A stretch of 64,000 nt of DNA from Synechococcus sp. NB0720_010 (GTDB taxonomy: Bacteria; Cyanobacteriota; Cyanobacteriia; PCC-6307; Cyanobiaceae), in NCBI RefSeq assembly GCF_023078835.1, contig NZ_CP090898.1, positions 870,045-934,044 on the forward strand, given 5' to 3'. A model generated the notes under the pieces. That model was not told the DNA's origin, did no database searches, and saw only the letters and a program-made list of their open reading frames with translations. This document shows positions 54,105-62,149 of the stretch, piece after piece (within the stretch, counting starts at the first letter, position 1; each line of letters starts with the position of its first letter). Both the position numbers and the translations under genes were made by a program.

Positions 54105-54647
54105 ATGGGCGACCGTCTCCAGACCGGTGACCCCCTCACGCCCGTACCACTCCAGGAGCTCAAGCTGCTGGAGCAGGGAAAGCACTGGACCATCGACCAA
54201 CGGCTCGGCGAACTCGACAGCCTGACCCCGGTGCGCGGCCAACTCCTCGCCGTGCATCGCGGCAATGTCCTCGAACTGGACGGCGAGGCCAACACCATCG
54301 TCACCCTCTGCTGTGACCGCTGCCTGCAGCAGTTCAACCACCCCCTGAGCTTCCAAACCCGCGAGGTGCTTTGGCTGGGGGAGCAGGCCCGGGAGCAGGG
54401 GATGGATCTGGAGACCGTGCTGGAGGCCGGCAGTGAGGTGCTGGAACTCGATCCCGATGAACTGACCGAAAGCATGGACCCCCGGGCGGATTTCGATCCA
54501 GAGCACTGGGTGTTTGAGCAACTCAACCTCCAGCTGCCGGTCGTGAATCGCTGCGGCGCGGAGTGTCCTGGCCCCAACCTGAAGACGGAACCGGACGATG
54601 GACCCATCGATCCCCGCTGGGCTGCCCTGAAGAACCTGCAGCCATGA
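54105..54647 (+). CDS. YceD family (DUF177) protein
   Basis: A 180-residue protein of the YceD/DUF177 family, which in plants and bacteria affects 23S rRNA accumulation. Markers are the Cys pair region VTLCCDRCLQQFNHPLSFQTRE and the C-terminal RWAALKNL. A second Cys pair RCGAECPGPN near residue 150 might complete a metal site. It starts three bases after yidC and its stop overlaps the AAA ATPase start. Confidence 0.82.
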   Translation: MGDRLQTGDPLTPVPLQELKLLEQGKHWTIDQRLGELDSLTPVRGQLLAVHRGNVLELDGEANTIVTLCCDRCLQQFNHPLSFQTREVLWLGEQAREQGMDLETVLEAGSEVLELDPDELTESMDPRADFDPEHWVFEQLNLQLPVVNRCGAECPGPNLKTEPDDGPIDPRWAALKNLQP

Positions 54648-56131
54648 GCCAGGCCTGGGCGGATCACCTTGATCTCTTGATCCGGGCCCGGACGCCGATC
54701 CTCTGGATCCGGAGCCAGGAGGAGGAGAGGATCGCGAACCTCTTGGGCGATGCCGCCAAGCGCCTCGACCAGCGAGCGCTGGCCCGCTGGGATTTCATCA
54801 GTGGGCTCAAAGGCTGGCCTGGCCGGGACGGAGAAGCCGCGCGCAATCCGTTGGCAGCCCTGGAGAGCCTCAGCGCCCTCCCCGCTGAGCAGCCAGCCCT
54901 GCTGGTGCTGCACGACTTTCACCGCTACGCCGACGACAGCAGCATCTGCCGCAAGCTGCGCAACCTGGCCTCAAGCCTGCGCCAACGGCCGCAAACCCTG
55001 GTGATCACCGCGGCGGAATGGCAGCTGCCGCGGGAGCTGGAGGAATGCATCACCCTGCTGGACCTTCCACTGCCCAACCAACAGGAGATCCAGGCCCTGC
55101 TGGGAAACATCGCCCAAGCCAGTGGCCAGGCCATCGGCGCCGATCTTCTGGAGCTGCTCACCCACAGCTGCAGCGGGCTCAGTGAGCAGCGGATCCGCCA
55201 GGTGGCCGCCCGCGGCCTGGCCAGTCGGGGACAACTCGGCAGCGCGGACCTCGATGAGGTGCTCGAAGAAAAGCGCCAGGCCATCGCCCGCAGCGAACTG
55301 CTGGAGTACTGCCCAACAGAAGCCACACCGGCTGATATCGGCGGGTTGGATGCCCTGAAGCGCTGGCTCGAGCAACGGCACATGGCCTTCAGCGATGAGG
55401 CGCGCCGCTACGGGCTGCCGCTTCCCCGCGGGGTCCTACTGGTGGGTCCCCAGGGGACCGGCAAGTCACTGACGGCCAAGGCCATTGCCCACAGCTGGAG
55501 CATGCCGCTGCTCCGCTTGGATGTCGGCCGGCTGTTTGCCGGGCTGGTGGGAGCCTCGGAAGCCCGCACCAGGGACATGATTCAACGGGCCGAGGCGATG
55601 GCCCCGTGCGTGCTCTGGATTGACGAGATCGACAAAGGCTTCGGCAGCGCTGATGGCCGCAGCGATGGAGGCACCAGCCAACGGGTACTGGCGAGTCTGT
55701 TGACCTGGATGGCGGAGAAAACGACAGCGGTCTTTGTGGTGGCGACGGCGAACGGTGTGGAGAAACTGCCGGCCGAGCTGCTGCGCAAAGGACGGTTCGA
55801 TGAAATTTTCCTCTTGGATCTTCCCGATGCCCAAGAGCGTCGAACGATCCTCGATTTGCAACTCCGCCGACGACGTCCCCAACACCACATTCCATTGGAT
55901 GTGGTGGTTGATCGCACTCAGGGGTTCTCTGGGGCAGAACTCGAGCAGGTGGTGATTGAAGCGATGCACCAGGCCTTCAGCGAATCCCGGGAATTCGCAG
56001 AGGCCGACCTCACCAGCGCCGCGGCACAACTCGTACCCCTCTCGCGCACGGCCCGTGAACAATTGGAGCAACTGCAACAGTGGGCCAGCAGCGGCAGGGC
56101 CCGCCCAGCTTCAACACATTGCGGCGGGTAA
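54644..56131 (+). CDS. ycf46: Ycf46-like AAA ATPase
   Basis: A 495-residue AAA+ protein: an N-terminal degenerate domain (ARTPILWIRSQEEERI; LLVLHDFHRYADD; LVITAAEWQLPRELEE), then one complete AAA domain with Walker A GPQGTGKSL, Walker B VLWIDEIDKGFG, an FtsH-like segment ELLRKGRFDEIFLLDLP with the arginine finger region, and the lid region QGFSGAELEQVVIEAM. The family is encoded in algal plastid genomes as ycf46 and is thought to act in carbon-related regulation. It is translationally coupled to the YceD gene. Confidence 0.88.
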   Translation: MSQAWADHLDLLIRARTPILWIRSQEEERIANLLGDAAKRLDQRALARWDFISGLKGWPGRDGEAARNPLAALESLSALPAEQPALLVLHDFHRYADDSSICRKLRNLASSLRQRPQTLVITAAEWQLPRELEECITLLDLPLPNQQEIQALLGNIAQASGQAIGADLLELLTHSCSGLSEQRIRQVAARGLASRGQLGSADLDEVLEEKRQAIARSELLEYCPTEATPADIGGLDALKRWLEQRHMAFSDEARRYGLPLPRGVLLVGPQGTGKSLTAKAIAHSWSMPLLRLDVGRLFAGLVGASEARTRDMIQRAEAMAPCVLWIDEIDKGFGSADGRSDGGTSQRVLASLLTWMAEKTTAVFVVATANGVEKLPAELLRKGRFDEIFLLDLPDAQERRTILDLQLRRRRPQHHIPLDVVVDRTQGFSGAELEQVVIEAMHQAFSESREFAEADLTSAAAQLVPLSRTAREQLEQLQQWASSGRARPASTHCGG

Positions 56132-57941: not shown

Positions 57942-58109
57942 ATGACAGCCAGCGGACGGGCCTTCCGTTTCATCCTCTTGATCGTGGGCATTGGCCTCTT
58001 GGTCTGGATAACGAGGCAACAACCGCGTCCGACACCCAGCGGCGGCGGCGGACTGCCGGCATCTGGCATGGGCTCTCCCCGGCCCGGACTCCGCAGCTTG
58101 GGCTATTAG
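57942..58109 (+). CDS. 55-residue single-pass membrane protein with Gly/Pro tail
   Basis: MTASGRAFRFILLIVGIGLL continues into VWITRQQPRPTPSGGGG and a short Gly/Ser/Pro-rich end finishing SLGY. One N-terminal membrane helix and a flexible tail are visible. It starts nine bases after the preceding small gene, suggesting cotranscription. It marks the left edge of the AT-richer island. Confidence 0.5.
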   Translation: MTASGRAFRFILLIVGIGLLVWITRQQPRPTPSGGGGLPASGMGSPRPGLRSLGY

Positions 58110-58128
58110 CAAATGAAGACTGGAGGCA

Positions 58129-58542
58129 TCAAACAGCCCTTAATGTCCCTGCATAAAAGGCTGCGAAAGCATTAGAAGTTGCCACCGGATCAAGCGAGCC
58201 AGAAAAGGACCCATGGGTGCAGAGATAATTCAACAAACCCCTCTCCTGATCATCAACAATACGATCAGCAAAAACAAGATGAGCACTGACCGCGATAATC
58301 GTGTCGTGATGCTTGGGATCAAGGCATGCCAACGCCTGATCAATAATTAGCTTCGGGTCCTCTTCTTCAAATCGCTTGGCAACTCGCGACGACAACTCCG
58401 ACATACCCGCTGCACCTAGAGACGAGAATAACTCCCTATTCTCAAGAAGTCGCCTTAAAGCTGCCGCTTCATCATTTCTCATCCTGCCATCACAAGCAAG
58501 CGTAGCGATTGCAATCGAAAGGAATGCTTCCTGGTCATTCAC
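58129..58542 (-). CDS. TerB-like helical protein
   Basis: A 137-residue protein that resembles the TerB/tellurite-resistance fold: EAFLSIAIATLACDGRMRNDEAAALRRLLE with the family A-x-DG-x-E pattern, then IDQALACLDPKHHDTIIAVSAHLVFADRIVDDQERGLLNYL repeating the D-G/D-x-E theme. TerB domains are acidic helical bundles often tied to membrane or stress functions. It starts 28 bases after the end of the pentameric channel gene on the same strand, so the two form a likely operon. The TerB assignment is by pattern only. Confidence 0.65.
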   Translation of the reverse strand: MNDQEAFLSIAIATLACDGRMRNDEAAALRRLLENRELFSSLGAAGMSELSSRVAKRFEEEDPKLIIDQALACLDPKHHDTIIAVSAHLVFADRIVDDQERGLLNYLCTHGSFSGSLDPVATSNAFAAFYAGTLRAV

Positions 58543-58570
58543 AAGGCAATTATGATCGGCTCACCAAATT

Positions 58571-59869
58571 TTAATACCCGCCAAGACGAGAAGACAAAAA
58601 ACCTAATACCCAGATTAGCGGTGCACCAAAAGCCGCCACAAACATTGTGCCCACGCGAGAGACACGAGTGAACGTCAGCGGAATAGCCTGACGCTCATCG
58701 GCCAGAAAATGCGAGGCAATAATAAACTCAACAAATGCCGCAAGTGTCGCAACATATGCCAGCAAGTAGTAGTAATCAAGCAGCATAGGCTGCCCTAGAT
58801 CAGGCACGTCGGTCAAAGCACCTTGCTGCAGAAAGACCAACGAGAGAAGCACAGTGGGAGGAATCGCAAGTCTAACTTCGACATGCTCTTTTGGTATGTA
58901 AGAAGCAACTACCAGAGACACTAACAGCAGTGATACGGGGAATACAAACCTAAGCCAGGTTGTCGAGAGCTGCCTCTTCAAGGTCAAAGTCCAAGACGCG
59001 ACTGAAAAAGGACCAACCTCATTCGAGAAATACGCCTTTTCCAACTCCCGAAGAGACTCACCATTAGACCCGAAAGCACCGGTCTTACCATCAACAACCA
59101 CGTCACCTAAGCCCTTAAAAAACGGAGCGCTAAAGAATGACGGAGAACTTTTAAAGTCCGATATCCGGTAATTAGAAACCGATTTTTGAGCATTAAGATC
59201 CTTCAGATTCTTCTTGGTCGGAGCAAGCTTCAGTCTGTAAGATGGCATCAAGTCGTGGAAGACTTTAATGTCAATTTTCTGGGAGTCGACAGGATAATCG
59301 AGCAGCCTAGGTGCAAAGGAGTAGTTACCGGAAAAAGCATACTCGCCGACCCAATACTTGCCATTCCTGCCACTTTTCTGCTGAAGCAAAACAGGTTCAT
59401 AGGAGTAAAAGTCATCCTGAAGAAGCCCATCAATAACAAGATCAGCCATCAAGTCTTCGCTTGCCTTGATTTTCCCTAGACGCGCACTGGCAAATGAAAT
59501 CTTAGGAGCAATTGACTCCTTCCCAAGAGAGTCTTCAGACCAAACGCCTCTAATCGTGCCTGAGATGAAGACCGTCTGAGAAGCAAAGTCAATTGGGCGC
59601 ACTTTCTCAATGTCGAGATCTAAATACATAGGCGCCGATGGCGCAACGTAATCACCCCTTCTATTTGCAATGGCGATAACGTTTTCCAATCTATTGAGCG
59701 ACTTAAACTGATACTCATAGCGATAGTCAGATGCCCCTTGATCGCCATAGAACGAGCTATCAACAACAGCAATCACAAGCGGCGTAATGACGACGGCCAA
59801 AAAAGCAATAATTCCGAGAAGAGGAGTAAATAAGTTCCGCCTCAGAAGTGAGCCAATAAAATGCTTCAT
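58571..59869 (-). CDS. Pentameric ligand-gated ion channel homologue (Cys-loop receptor superfamily)
   Basis: A 432-residue protein from the ATG at 59869. An N-terminal membrane helix (about 12-36) precedes a large extracytoplasmic domain. That domain contains an ISGTIRGVWSED strand (102-113) like the W-x-D of channel ligand domains and the Pro-loop hallmark YPVDSQ at 192-197 (YPFDSQ in GLIC). KR at 298-299 begins the pre-M1 region, then four helices: M1 near 305-324 with the conserved Pro, M2 near 330-351, M3 near 365-388 and M4 near 404-425, preceded by FTRVSR (GLIC has ITRASR). Glu331 sits at the -2' pore position as in cation channels. The stretch at about 220-290 is a long insertion, and prolines at 4'/5' of M2 are unusual. 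The ligand is unknown. Confidence 0.85.
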   Translation of the reverse strand: MKHFIGSLLRRNLFTPLLGIIAFLAVVITPLVIAVVDSSFYGDQGASDYRYEYQFKSLNRLENVIAIANRRGDYVAPSAPMYLDLDIEKVRPIDFASQTVFISGTIRGVWSEDSLGKESIAPKISFASARLGKIKASEDLMADLVIDGLLQDDFYSYEPVLLQQKSGRNGKYWVGEYAFSGNYSFAPRLLDYPVDSQKIDIKVFHDLMPSYRLKLAPTKKNLKDLNAQKSVSNYRISDFKSSPSFFSAPFFKGLGDVVVDGKTGAFGSNGESLRELEKAYFSNEVGPFSVASWTLTLKRQLSTTWLRFVFPVSLLLVSLVVASYIPKEHVEVRLAIPPTVLLSLVFLQQGALTDVPDLGQPMLLDYYYLLAYVATLAAFVEFIIASHFLADERQAIPLTFTRVSRVGTMFVAAFGAPLIWVLGFLSSRLGGY

Positions 59870-59947
59870 ACACACTACTAGCGGCAGGAGGTGGGGCCCG
59901 AGACCAGGCAGTTGATACAATAATATATCGATTCACGCGAATCCAGG
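59870..59947. promoter_or_regulatory. Divergent promoter region between the two channel genes
   Basis: Only 78 bases separate the start codons. The AT-rich core ACAATAATATAT (about 59917-59928) can supply a -10-like element for either strand. A perfect dyad GATTC-ACGC-GAATC (59930-59943) sits just upstream of the bestrophin GTG and could be an operator or a leader hairpin. No -35 box is convincing. Confidence 0.5.
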
Positions 59948-60874
59948 GTGCCGCATCAACCAAGGACGCTTATCAGAGAGCTTTGGAGCGACAGCAACCA
60001 GGTCGACCTACACCACACCTCCCCGCCAGAGACATCACTGCGTGAGTATCCAGAAGTCATTGCCCAAGTAATACGAAGGACGACGGCAGACATTCTTTCA
60101 CTCATAATATTAGCTCTCTTACTTGGCACCATTGAGACTCCAGAAAGAATCTTCTTGAGCAGCAAAGCCATTTCAATCCTTGGCATTGCAGTCGCAGTTT
60201 TTATTGGCTTTAGAAACACCCAAGCCATAGATCGCTGGTGGGAAGCCCGAAAACTATGGGGAGAATTAGTCAACTCAAGTCGGTTATGGAAAGACAGTCT
60301 GATTACATATTTGGATAAAGAGACCCTGCACAGCGATGGCCATCTTCTGCTTACATCTCAAGCGGCTTTACTGTGGGCTCTCAACTTTGAATTACGAAAC
60401 TTTGCTCGCAGAGATGATTTAAGACTATTCCATGAACTACTAGACAAAGGCCAGCTTTCTCAATCCGAATCGACCACTCGGCTGATTTCTGAAAACATGA
60501 TGAGAAGAGTTAACAGCCTCCACTGTGCAGGGAAACTAGACGACTGGGGACGCAATCAGATGGTCTACAACTCGAGCCTCATCACCGCATCAATTGGTGG
60601 ATTACAAAGGATTCGCAATACACCAATACCACCTCCATACGATGTTTTTGTTAGAATACTTTCATGGATATTTGGGTCTCAGCTGATATTAGCATTTAAG
60701 GCCGATGGCTCAATCATTACAGGAGCATTTCTCACAGCAGGTTTTATTTTTGCCGAGCGAATTGGTTCTTACATCGAGGGTCCTTTCGACAAAGACGGAT
60801 CAACGTTTTCAATTCGCCAAAATGAGCTATGCCATCTAGTCACAGATGAACTTACCTTCAAGAAAAGCATTTAG
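59948..60874 (+). CDS. Bestrophin family anion channel protein
   Basis: A 308-residue protein of the prokaryotic bestrophin (UPF0187) family, which forms pentameric anion, or in some bacteria cation, channels. Diagnostic is FIGFRNTQAIDRWWEARKLWGELVNSSR (85-112). RIRNTPIPPPYDVFVR (221-236) and ERIGSYIEGPFDKD (270-283) follow, with four membrane segments in between and around. A soluble start of 40 residues precedes helix 1. The start is GTG at 59948. Cyanobacterial and plant thylakoid bestrophins balance charge across the thylakoid membrane. It is divergent from the pentameric channel gene. Confidence 0.9.
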   Translation: MPHQPRTLIRELWSDSNQVDLHHTSPPETSLREYPEVIAQVIRRTTADILSLIILALLLGTIETPERIFLSSKAISILGIAVAVFIGFRNTQAIDRWWEARKLWGELVNSSRLWKDSLITYLDKETLHSDGHLLLTSQAALLWALNFELRNFARRDDLRLFHELLDKGQLSQSESTTRLISENMMRRVNSLHCAGKLDDWGRNQMVYNSSLITASIGGLQRIRNTPIPPPYDVFVRILSWIFGSQLILAFKADGSIITGAFLTAGFIFAERIGSYIEGPFDKDGSTFSIRQNELCHLVTDELTFKKSI

Positions 60875-60970
60875 CAACTTTCGAACAATATCCAACTAGT
60901 CAAGAACTGAGCAAATCTTCAAATTCAAACATAAGCTGACATCAGATGAGCAATTTTGGATTCTGACTCG

Positions 60971-62149
60971 ATGGCATCCAATGTATTGCGCGATCTCTGT
61001 CCAGCACTGGCCAACAAGACCTACTTCAACTACGGCGGTCAGGGGCCTCTGCCCACCCCATCGCTCGAGGCCATCACAGCCAGTTGGCGCACCATTCAGG
61101 AGCTGGGGCCCTTCACAACCGATGTCTGGCCCTTCATCGAGCAGGAAACCAGCCGCCTACGCCAGAGCCTGGCGAGCTGGTGCGGGGTCGGCCCCCATCG
61201 CATTGCCCTCACCGAGAACGTCACCAGTGGATGCGTCTTGCCCCTCTGGGGCTTGCCCTGGGAGGAGGGCGATGAGCTGCTGATCAGTGACTGCGAGCAC
61301 CCAGGCGTGGTCGCGGCCTGCCAAGAACTGGCCCGCCGCCACAACCTAACCCTGGCCACCCTGCCGGTGCTGGAGCTCTGCCAGGCCACCGCCCAGCGGG
61401 GCCTTGAGGGGGCCGTTCTGGAGCAGCTCCAGACCTGCCTGAAGCCCAGAACCCGGCTCCTGGTCCTCTCCCACCTGCTCTGGAACACCGGCTCCGTGAT
61501 GCCCATCGCTGCGGTGGCCCAACACCTGCAGGCGCATCCCCAACAACCCTGGCTCCTGGTGGATGCGGCCCAATCCATGGGCAGCCTTCCCGTCGCCGCA
61601 GCGGCGCAGGCAGCAGACATCTACGCCTTCACCGGTCACAAGTGGTGCTGCGGCCCAGAGGGCCTGGGGGGAGTTGCCCTCTCCGAGCGGCTCCTGGATC
61701 AAGGCCAGCCCACCTTGATCGGCTGGCGCAGCCTCGAGCAGGAGAGCAGTGCCGGCAGCAGCTGGCACCGCGATGGTCGACGTTTTGAGGTCGCCACCTC
61801 CTGTGTGCCCCTCTTCAGTGGACTGCGGCAATCCCTGGAGTTGCTCAGTGCAGAGGGGAGCGAGACGGAACGCCTCGAGAGGATTCGCCAGGGCAGTCAC
61901 CAGCTCTGGCAAAACCTGCAAGCACTCCCCGGCTGCCGCACCCTCTTGAGCGAACCCCCGCCAGCTGGTCTGGTCAGCTTTGGCCTGGAGGGGGTTGAGA
62001 CCGCGCAGGCGGTTGAGGCCTTGGGTCAAGCCGGGATCTGGATCCGGCGACTGGATTCACCGGATTGCCTCAGGGCCTGCACCCATCTCTGCACCCTCCC
62101 CACAGAAATCGAGGCCCTGAGCGCAGCCGTGAGTGAGCTGCTTCCCTAA
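60971..62149 (+). CDS. Class V aminotransferase, L-cysteine/cystine lyase (C-DES) type
   Basis: A 392-residue PLP enzyme. N-terminal [20 protein letters not shown] is typical of the Synechocystis C-DES group; the PLP Lys lies in [17 protein letters not shown], and [19 protein letters not shown] and [12 protein letters not shown] are family features. C-DES releases a persulfide from cystine for iron-sulfur or sulfur metabolism; ordinary cysteine desulfurases are a less close fit. The ATG at 60971 is chosen over an upstream TTG. The GC-rich core genome resumes here. It is convergent with murE with overlapping stops. Confidence 0.85.

Follow-up and report, generated by a model that had tools for sequence, protein, structure and literature searches.

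A divergent pentameric ligand-gated ion channel gene beside a KpBest-type bestrophin gene on an AT-rich insert adjoining the 5′ end of a cysteine/cystine-lyase gene of Synechococcus sp. NB0720_010

Tyrosine-recombinase elements are known from picocyanobacteria as the tycheposons of Prochlorococcus, which target tRNA genes. Entry into the 5′ end of a protein gene, which thereby receives a new 5′ end, has been described for the dusA-associated islands, which likewise encode tyrosine integrases (Farrugia et al. 2015, PMC4482086). Pentameric ligand-gated ion channels (pLGICs) of Synechococcus and Prochlorococcus are on record through Jaiteh et al. (2016, PMC4795631), according to whom none of the pLGICs of unicellular organisms had a known biological role. 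Among the bestrophins, KpBest is a Na+ channel that shifts towards Cl– upon the exchange I66F; Cl– bestrophins have the neck residues I-F-F, as compared to I-I-F in the Na+-conducting KpBest (PMC8496536). Each of the two kinds of protein, and the presence of pLGICs in picocyanobacteria, is therefore not new. The part of the survey by Jaiteh et al. (2016, PMC4795631) that was available mentions no bestrophin pairing for the picocyanobacterial pLGICs, and a literature search at the level of titles and abstracts revealed neither a described pLGIC–bestrophin pair nor islands in a cystine-lyase gene. What the present locus adds, judged from that search, is a divergent pLGIC member, its rare pairing with a bestrophin, and an apparently undescribed hotspot in a lyase gene.

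The window, i.e., the whole stretch of 64,000 nucleotides analysed here (G000:C1:870045–934044), is part of a genome of genus g1 that consists of one contig of 2.41 Mb. An insert of 2,880 bp at 58106..60985 carries a TerB-like gene, the pLGIC gene and the bestrophin gene. The sequence-only reading had placed the two channel genes in an AT-richer island of a GC-rich genome, which is borne out by a GC content of 0.459 for the insert versus 0.648 in the remainder of the window; among 1105 overlapping upstream stretches of the same length, none falls below 0.598. GC contents of the TerB-like, pLGIC and bestrophin genes are 0.48, 0.46, and 0.45, respectively, with GC3 values of 0.43–0.48, and those of the flanking genes are 0.65–0.66, with GC3 values of 0.77–0.79. 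One of these flanking genes, at 54647..56131 (+), codes for an AAA ATPase and, having matches in genomes of the genus, serves as the left marker of the variable spot. The other, at 60971..62149 (+), codes for a class-V PLP enzyme (PF00266), the nearest solved relative of which is the L-cysteine/cystine C-S lyase C-DES (1elq, E 7.9e-98). Two genomes, G064 (L279) and G269 (L280), whose ATPases are 97% identical to that of the window, present a near-exact empty site: homology to the window extends as far as 58105 and starts again at 60986, the two relatives having 19 and 22 bases in between, respectively. Foreign GC content and empty site together corroborate the earlier proposal of acquisition by transfer. 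The insert adjoins the 5′ end of the lyase gene and supplies its first codons, the protein starting with M-A-S-N-V-L-R-D-L in the window and with M-F-R-D-L in L279 and L280.

The pLGIC gene (58571..59869, minus strand) encodes 432 aa from an ATG codon; a longer intact ORF (58571–59920, minus strand) is possible from a TTG start at 59920. The marks on which its assignment to the Cys-loop superfamily had been based, namely YPVDSQ at 192–197, KR before M1 and FTRVSR before M4, were all found in the translation. The cysteine pair of the metazoan Cys-loop is absent, the 432-aa translation containing no cysteine. A Pfam search returned nothing at E≤1, and NCBIfam models of ligand-gated channels matched weakly, below the cut-off (4e-5 and 0.008). 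In a single-sequence search, residues 302–434 (numbered from the TTG start) matched GABA-A receptors with an E value of 1.2e-5. A profile of 18 family members retrieved ELIC (5e-26) and GLIC (about 1e-16 to 3e-19), in both cases over ectodomain and pore, and together with the fold match supports the superfamily assignment. The AlphaFold model, built from a 63-member alignment (mean pLDDT 76, pTM 0.72), shows the expected beta-sandwich and four C-terminal helices (301–322, 327–352, 363–390, and 398–428), and was grouped with GluCl, GlyR and GABA-A receptors by Foldseek (E 7e-17) and VIA-align (Z 21.4, 289 residues, rmsd 3.0 to GluCl). With ELIC and GLIC the protein thus shares the beta-sandwich ectodomain, the Pro-loop proline, the four helices and the lack of Cys-loop cysteines; it differs from them in that its similarity becomes visible by family profile and fold while Pfam is blind to it, and in that the model has an N-terminal helix (14–37) and a stretch of low confidence (246–285). 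The Pro-loop proline P193 is kept in all 63 aligned members, as are D/E at pore position –2′, R/K at 0′, P at 4′, L at 9′, and F at 13′. Judged by profile and structure model, the window protein is a divergent Cys-less pLGIC. Its residues at pore positions 0′ and 9′ are Arg and Leu, respectively, and that at –2′ is acidic. GLIC, too, has an acidic residue at –2′, and by this analogy the window pLGIC is probably cation-selective. A caution of Jaiteh et al. (2016, PMC4795631) applies to this assignment, namely that the pore region does not decide ion selectivity in prokaryotes.

The bestrophin gene (59948..60874, plus strand, GTG start) codes for a KpBest-type protein of 308 aa. That a bestrophin is encoded beside the pLGIC was confirmed by a match to PF25539 well over the cut-off (E 6.1e-34, 118.3 bits, cut-off 27) and by matches to bestrophin chains of Klebsiella (best E 8.8e-21); the match to KpBest (4wd8) covers residues 36–298, with an E value of 9e-20. 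The sequence-only reading had further suggested that this protein acts as a counter-ion anion channel. Such a role finds no support, because the neck residues I-V-F, read from the alignment at the positions of I62, I66, and F70 of KpBest, are nearer to those of the Na+-conducting KpBest (I-I-F) than to those of the Cl– type (I-F-F). Like KpBest, the window protein has a non-aromatic middle neck residue; it is distinguished from KpBest by I-V-F in place of I-I-F, and by adjoining a pLGIC. As far as can be predicted from these residues, it is more likely to conduct cations than anions. A second bestrophin, 41% identical to that of the window, is encoded in the same genome at 2373831, and 55 of 251 family genomes (own genome included) contain bestrophin relatives. 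Weak bestrophin matches were also obtained in four records named Acinetobacter phage MD-2021a.

The two channel genes diverge from an intergenic stretch of 78 bases (59870..59947), reaching from the ATG of the pLGIC gene to the GTG of the bestrophin gene, exactly as had been noted before. No sigma-70-like site was detected in this stretch by consensus scan; the promoter scan, with 2 sites versus 3.2 in shuffles, was rejected as evidence. The TerB-like gene (58129..58542, minus strand, 137 aa, GTG start) follows the pLGIC gene on the same strand, 28 bases past its stop codon, so that the position noted earlier stands; the name has to be weakened, since the match to PF05099 (E 6.7e-4, 20.4 bits) stays below the Pfam cut-off of 24.4 bits. 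The protein is weakly TerB-like, outside the Pfam TerB family by that score. Relatives with up to 43% identity are present in 131 of 251 family genomes (own genome included), and the loci scanned contained no second case of a TerB-like gene as partner of a pLGIC.

An att core of 23 nt is located within the lyase gene (61010..61032, plus strand); it is doubled around integrative elements elsewhere and single in the window. Allowing ≤3 mismatches, this core was found in 140 of 300 family genomes. Fourteen of the 300 have at least two copies, and in 12 of these a pair of copies shares a contig at a spacing of no more than about 15 kb. Among the 11 genomes of this last group that were examined (all except G188), eight contain a tyrosine recombinase of one family at the lyase end and three lack it; identities of the recombinases between elements are 37–61%, with one pair at 99%. 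Two of these three, L329 and L332, may represent another kind of duplication, because the left copy continues into lyase-like sequence. Within the genus, 23 of 25 genomes (own included) have the lyase gene, and the distance between ATPase and lyase matches on the same contig lies between about 0.25 kb and 15.6 kb, the latter in G115. Other AT-rich inserts occupy the place of the window insert in G092 and G115; a stretch of about 45 bases derived from the lyase 5′ end is repeated, imperfectly and in direct orientation, on either side of them, and a Phage_integrase protein (PF00589) is encoded at the lyase side (E 1e-12 and 2e-7, respectively). In 78 further lyase loci (80 minus L341 and L392, which show no clear lyase), the integrase adjoins the lyase in two; in L336, a short piece resembling the integrase was noted 2.2 kb upstream, and L341, dropped from the count, has two integrase-family ORFs. 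The 5′ end of the lyase gene is a hotspot which integrase-bearing elements have entered time and again within this family of cyanobacteria. It differs from the tRNA targets of the tycheposons. In entering the 5′ end of a gene and replacing it, the elements resemble the dusA islands (Farrugia et al. 2015, PMC4482086); the target here, however, is a picocyanobacterial cysteine/cystine-lyase gene, and the window insert is without integrase and second att copy.

Some further features of the lyase region were observed. Elements with one type of integrase enter the lyase 5′ end in several genera (L281 4173–11880, L282 4230–17480, L324–L328, L331), and the cargo differs between L281 and L282. Two similar sulfotransferase-like ORFs lie upstream of the lyase gene in both G115 (L282 2465–4107) and G150 (L283 2075–3744); one of the four was tested against Pfam.

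Of the 400 family genomes sampled, 116 contain a relative of the window pLGIC (E≤1e-3, own genome included); at the same threshold, 30 of 386 genomes of the phylum do so, 17 of these 30 (own genome included) belonging to the family. Among the matches listed, similarity mostly concerned the pore domain, with 23–42% identity. Phages and plasmids searched for the pLGIC gave no match, nor did a single-sequence scan of genome-contig and viral-contig collections. In many cases, pLGIC genes exceed the DNA around them in AT content: of the 59 genes with enough flank for comparison (L032–L090, window included, without control genes), 45 are more than 5 GC points lower. Two contigs titled Bifidobacterium breve (L173, L196) contain a pLGIC related to that of the window; this bin label is probably wrong, because the L196 protein nests among picocyanobacteria in the tree. 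In two picocyanobacterial genomes (L083, L084), one strand carries two pLGIC genes separated by about 3 kb. The pLGIC gene is arranged tail to tail with the cysteine/cystine-lyase gene in six loci of genus g34 (L066, L068, L069, L071, L073, L078) and located immediately downstream of it in G244 (L322), but adjacency of lyase and pLGIC genes as a family-wide rule was rejected in view of its absence from all 78 of the further lyase loci.

Conservation of the pLGIC–bestrophin pair was surveyed in 37 other family genomes which contain both a bestrophin and a pLGIC of the window type (type A, window query). Compared by eye, none of the matches listed for these genomes adjoin each other; the two genes are 4.4 kb apart on one strand in G214, and more than 130 kb apart or on other contigs in the rest, different contigs being scored as non-adjacent although fragmented assemblies may hide pairs. 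The stretches around 111 distinct pLGIC genes (L032–L090, L152–L231), 70 of which have at least 3 kb on both sides, contained no bestrophin or TerB match. Outside the family, 11 genomes hold both genes, with no adjoining pair among the matches listed. The type B pLGIC of genus g5 is not among the matches listed for the window pLGIC and was found by scanning bestrophin loci. In three g5 genomes, this different subfamily is encoded divergently from a bestrophin, with 33 (G061), 110 (G197), and 36 (G004) bases between the matches, and the bestrophin gene sits between the pLGIC gene and sdhC; in G004, the pLGIC is a relic of 62 aa. The type B protein of G061 matches GLIC over residues 152 to 370 with an E value of 1.3e-4, a range that takes in the pore and some of the ectodomain, and, used as query, gave matches in 30 of 251 genomes (E≤1e-3, weak ones included). 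Seven other g5 genomes have type B open frames of 347–380 aa without a bestrophin (L414, L415, L416, L418, L420, L422, and L423); in these, the pLGIC gene diverges from genes that, named by eye, are sdhC-like and sdhA-like. Other ORFs next to bestrophin genes were considered as pLGICs and rejected by eye: the divergent ones of g34 (L127–L129, L132, L134) look like FAD-type oxidoreductases, and those of L131 and L133 are Rieske-like. The pairing thus has two or more origins, or else was moved; each partner persists without the other, seven g5 genomes keeping the pLGIC without a bestrophin and G004 keeping a bestrophin with a relic. The neighbourhood survey which the sequence-only reading had called for thus revealed a second divergent pairing, with type B, while the window-type pLGIC was without an adjacent bestrophin among the matches listed, and the TerB-like gene remained a single case.

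For the juxtaposition of the two channel genes, there is about an even chance that they are unrelated cargo gathered in the hotspot, with no functional link whatsoever. The genes in other inserts at the spot are unrelated ones, among them IS elements and genes for an RTX-repeat protein and a porin-like protein, the 78 further lyase loci contained no pLGIC, bestrophin or TerB match, and about 0.1 adjacent pairs would be expected by chance in the compared genomes (a rough estimate from gene numbers), so that a single additional independent case gives little cause for surprise; that such an independent divergent pairing does exist in g5 nevertheless argues against mere coincidence, and speaks to some extent for a pLGIC–bestrophin link and against the view of loosely associated cargo. 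The opposite proposal is that of one sensing and ion-flux module, in which a ligand would open the pLGIC and the bestrophin would answer the change in voltage or ions, both being made from a shared divergent promoter and travelling as a unit. The back-to-back arrangement in two genera and with two pLGIC subfamilies, one of them (type B) matching GLIC, agrees with this part of the sequence-only reading. We nevertheless regard such a module as unlikely, considering the lack of adjacency among the matches listed for 37 family genomes and 11 outside genomes, the g5 genomes in which type B is without a bestrophin or has decayed to a relic, and a tree that lends no support to a grouping of the window bestrophin with those of g5, the placement of the window protein being unsafe because of long branches. 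Distinctly unlikely, in our estimate, is a mobile two-channel signalling cassette, for which picocyanobacterial pLGIC genes of at least two subfamilies would have come, independently, to lie back to back with a gene for a KpBest-type bestrophin; if it were real, a ligand-gated depolarising channel and an intracellularly regulated pore would be co-made and spread on integrative elements.

Homologous recombination of the flanking core genes, or a transposon, might have brought in the insert in place of the integrase family. We consider this route rather doubtful. It would fit the lack of an integrase trace (best tblastn E value 0.078 in the island, 58000–61000, and nothing at 0.01 in the window) and the presence of one att copy, a search of the window with up to 3 mismatches allowed having revealed no second core, but the place of insertion and the replacement of the lyase N-terminus are as in the integrase-bearing elements, the island has no ORF >105 aa beyond its three genes, and no repeat pair was found at its edges. 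The letters upstream of the att core in the lyase gene are partly native-like in the window and were rejected, as ambiguous, as proof of an origin from an element. Since the window has neither an integrase nor a doubled target site, and the insert no repeat pair at its edges, we infer the route of entry; from the lack of an integrase and of a second att copy, we regard the insert as the presumable trimmed remnant of an integrative element. It is highly improbable that the window pLGIC is degenerate and no longer a channel. Its tree branch is very long (2.82) and its best identity to other members is 22% over 324 columns, as might be expected of a decaying gene, and its function may have drifted because of the length of that branch; the frame of 432 aa is still open, however, and at 12 columns the protein keeps the residue common to the other 62 members. 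It groups with four Prochlorococcus proteins (support 99/97), a placement which is unsafe because of long branches.

As a whole, we are moderately confident in the explanation that the locus is a transferred insert at the lyase hotspot, with two real channels as loosely associated cargo. A small insert, the putative trimmed remnant of an integrative element, would have been acquired horizontally at the 5′ end of the cysteine/cystine-lyase gene, its cargo including two membrane channel genes read outward from the 78-base stretch. The pLGIC would form a pentamer in the cytoplasmic membrane, be opened by a small molecule from the periplasm, and pass cations, thereby shifting the membrane potential. 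The bestrophin would form a pentameric pore of its own, which more probably conducts cations than anions; regulation may be common to both channels, which would be loosely associated cargo and not an obligate unit. The hotspot at the lyase 5′ end offers an explanation of how pLGIC receptor genes move, and the neighbours which recur beside pLGIC genes in some genera, namely bestrophin, sdhC-sdhA and cysteine/cystine-lyase genes, suggest testable ligands and partners for these channels.
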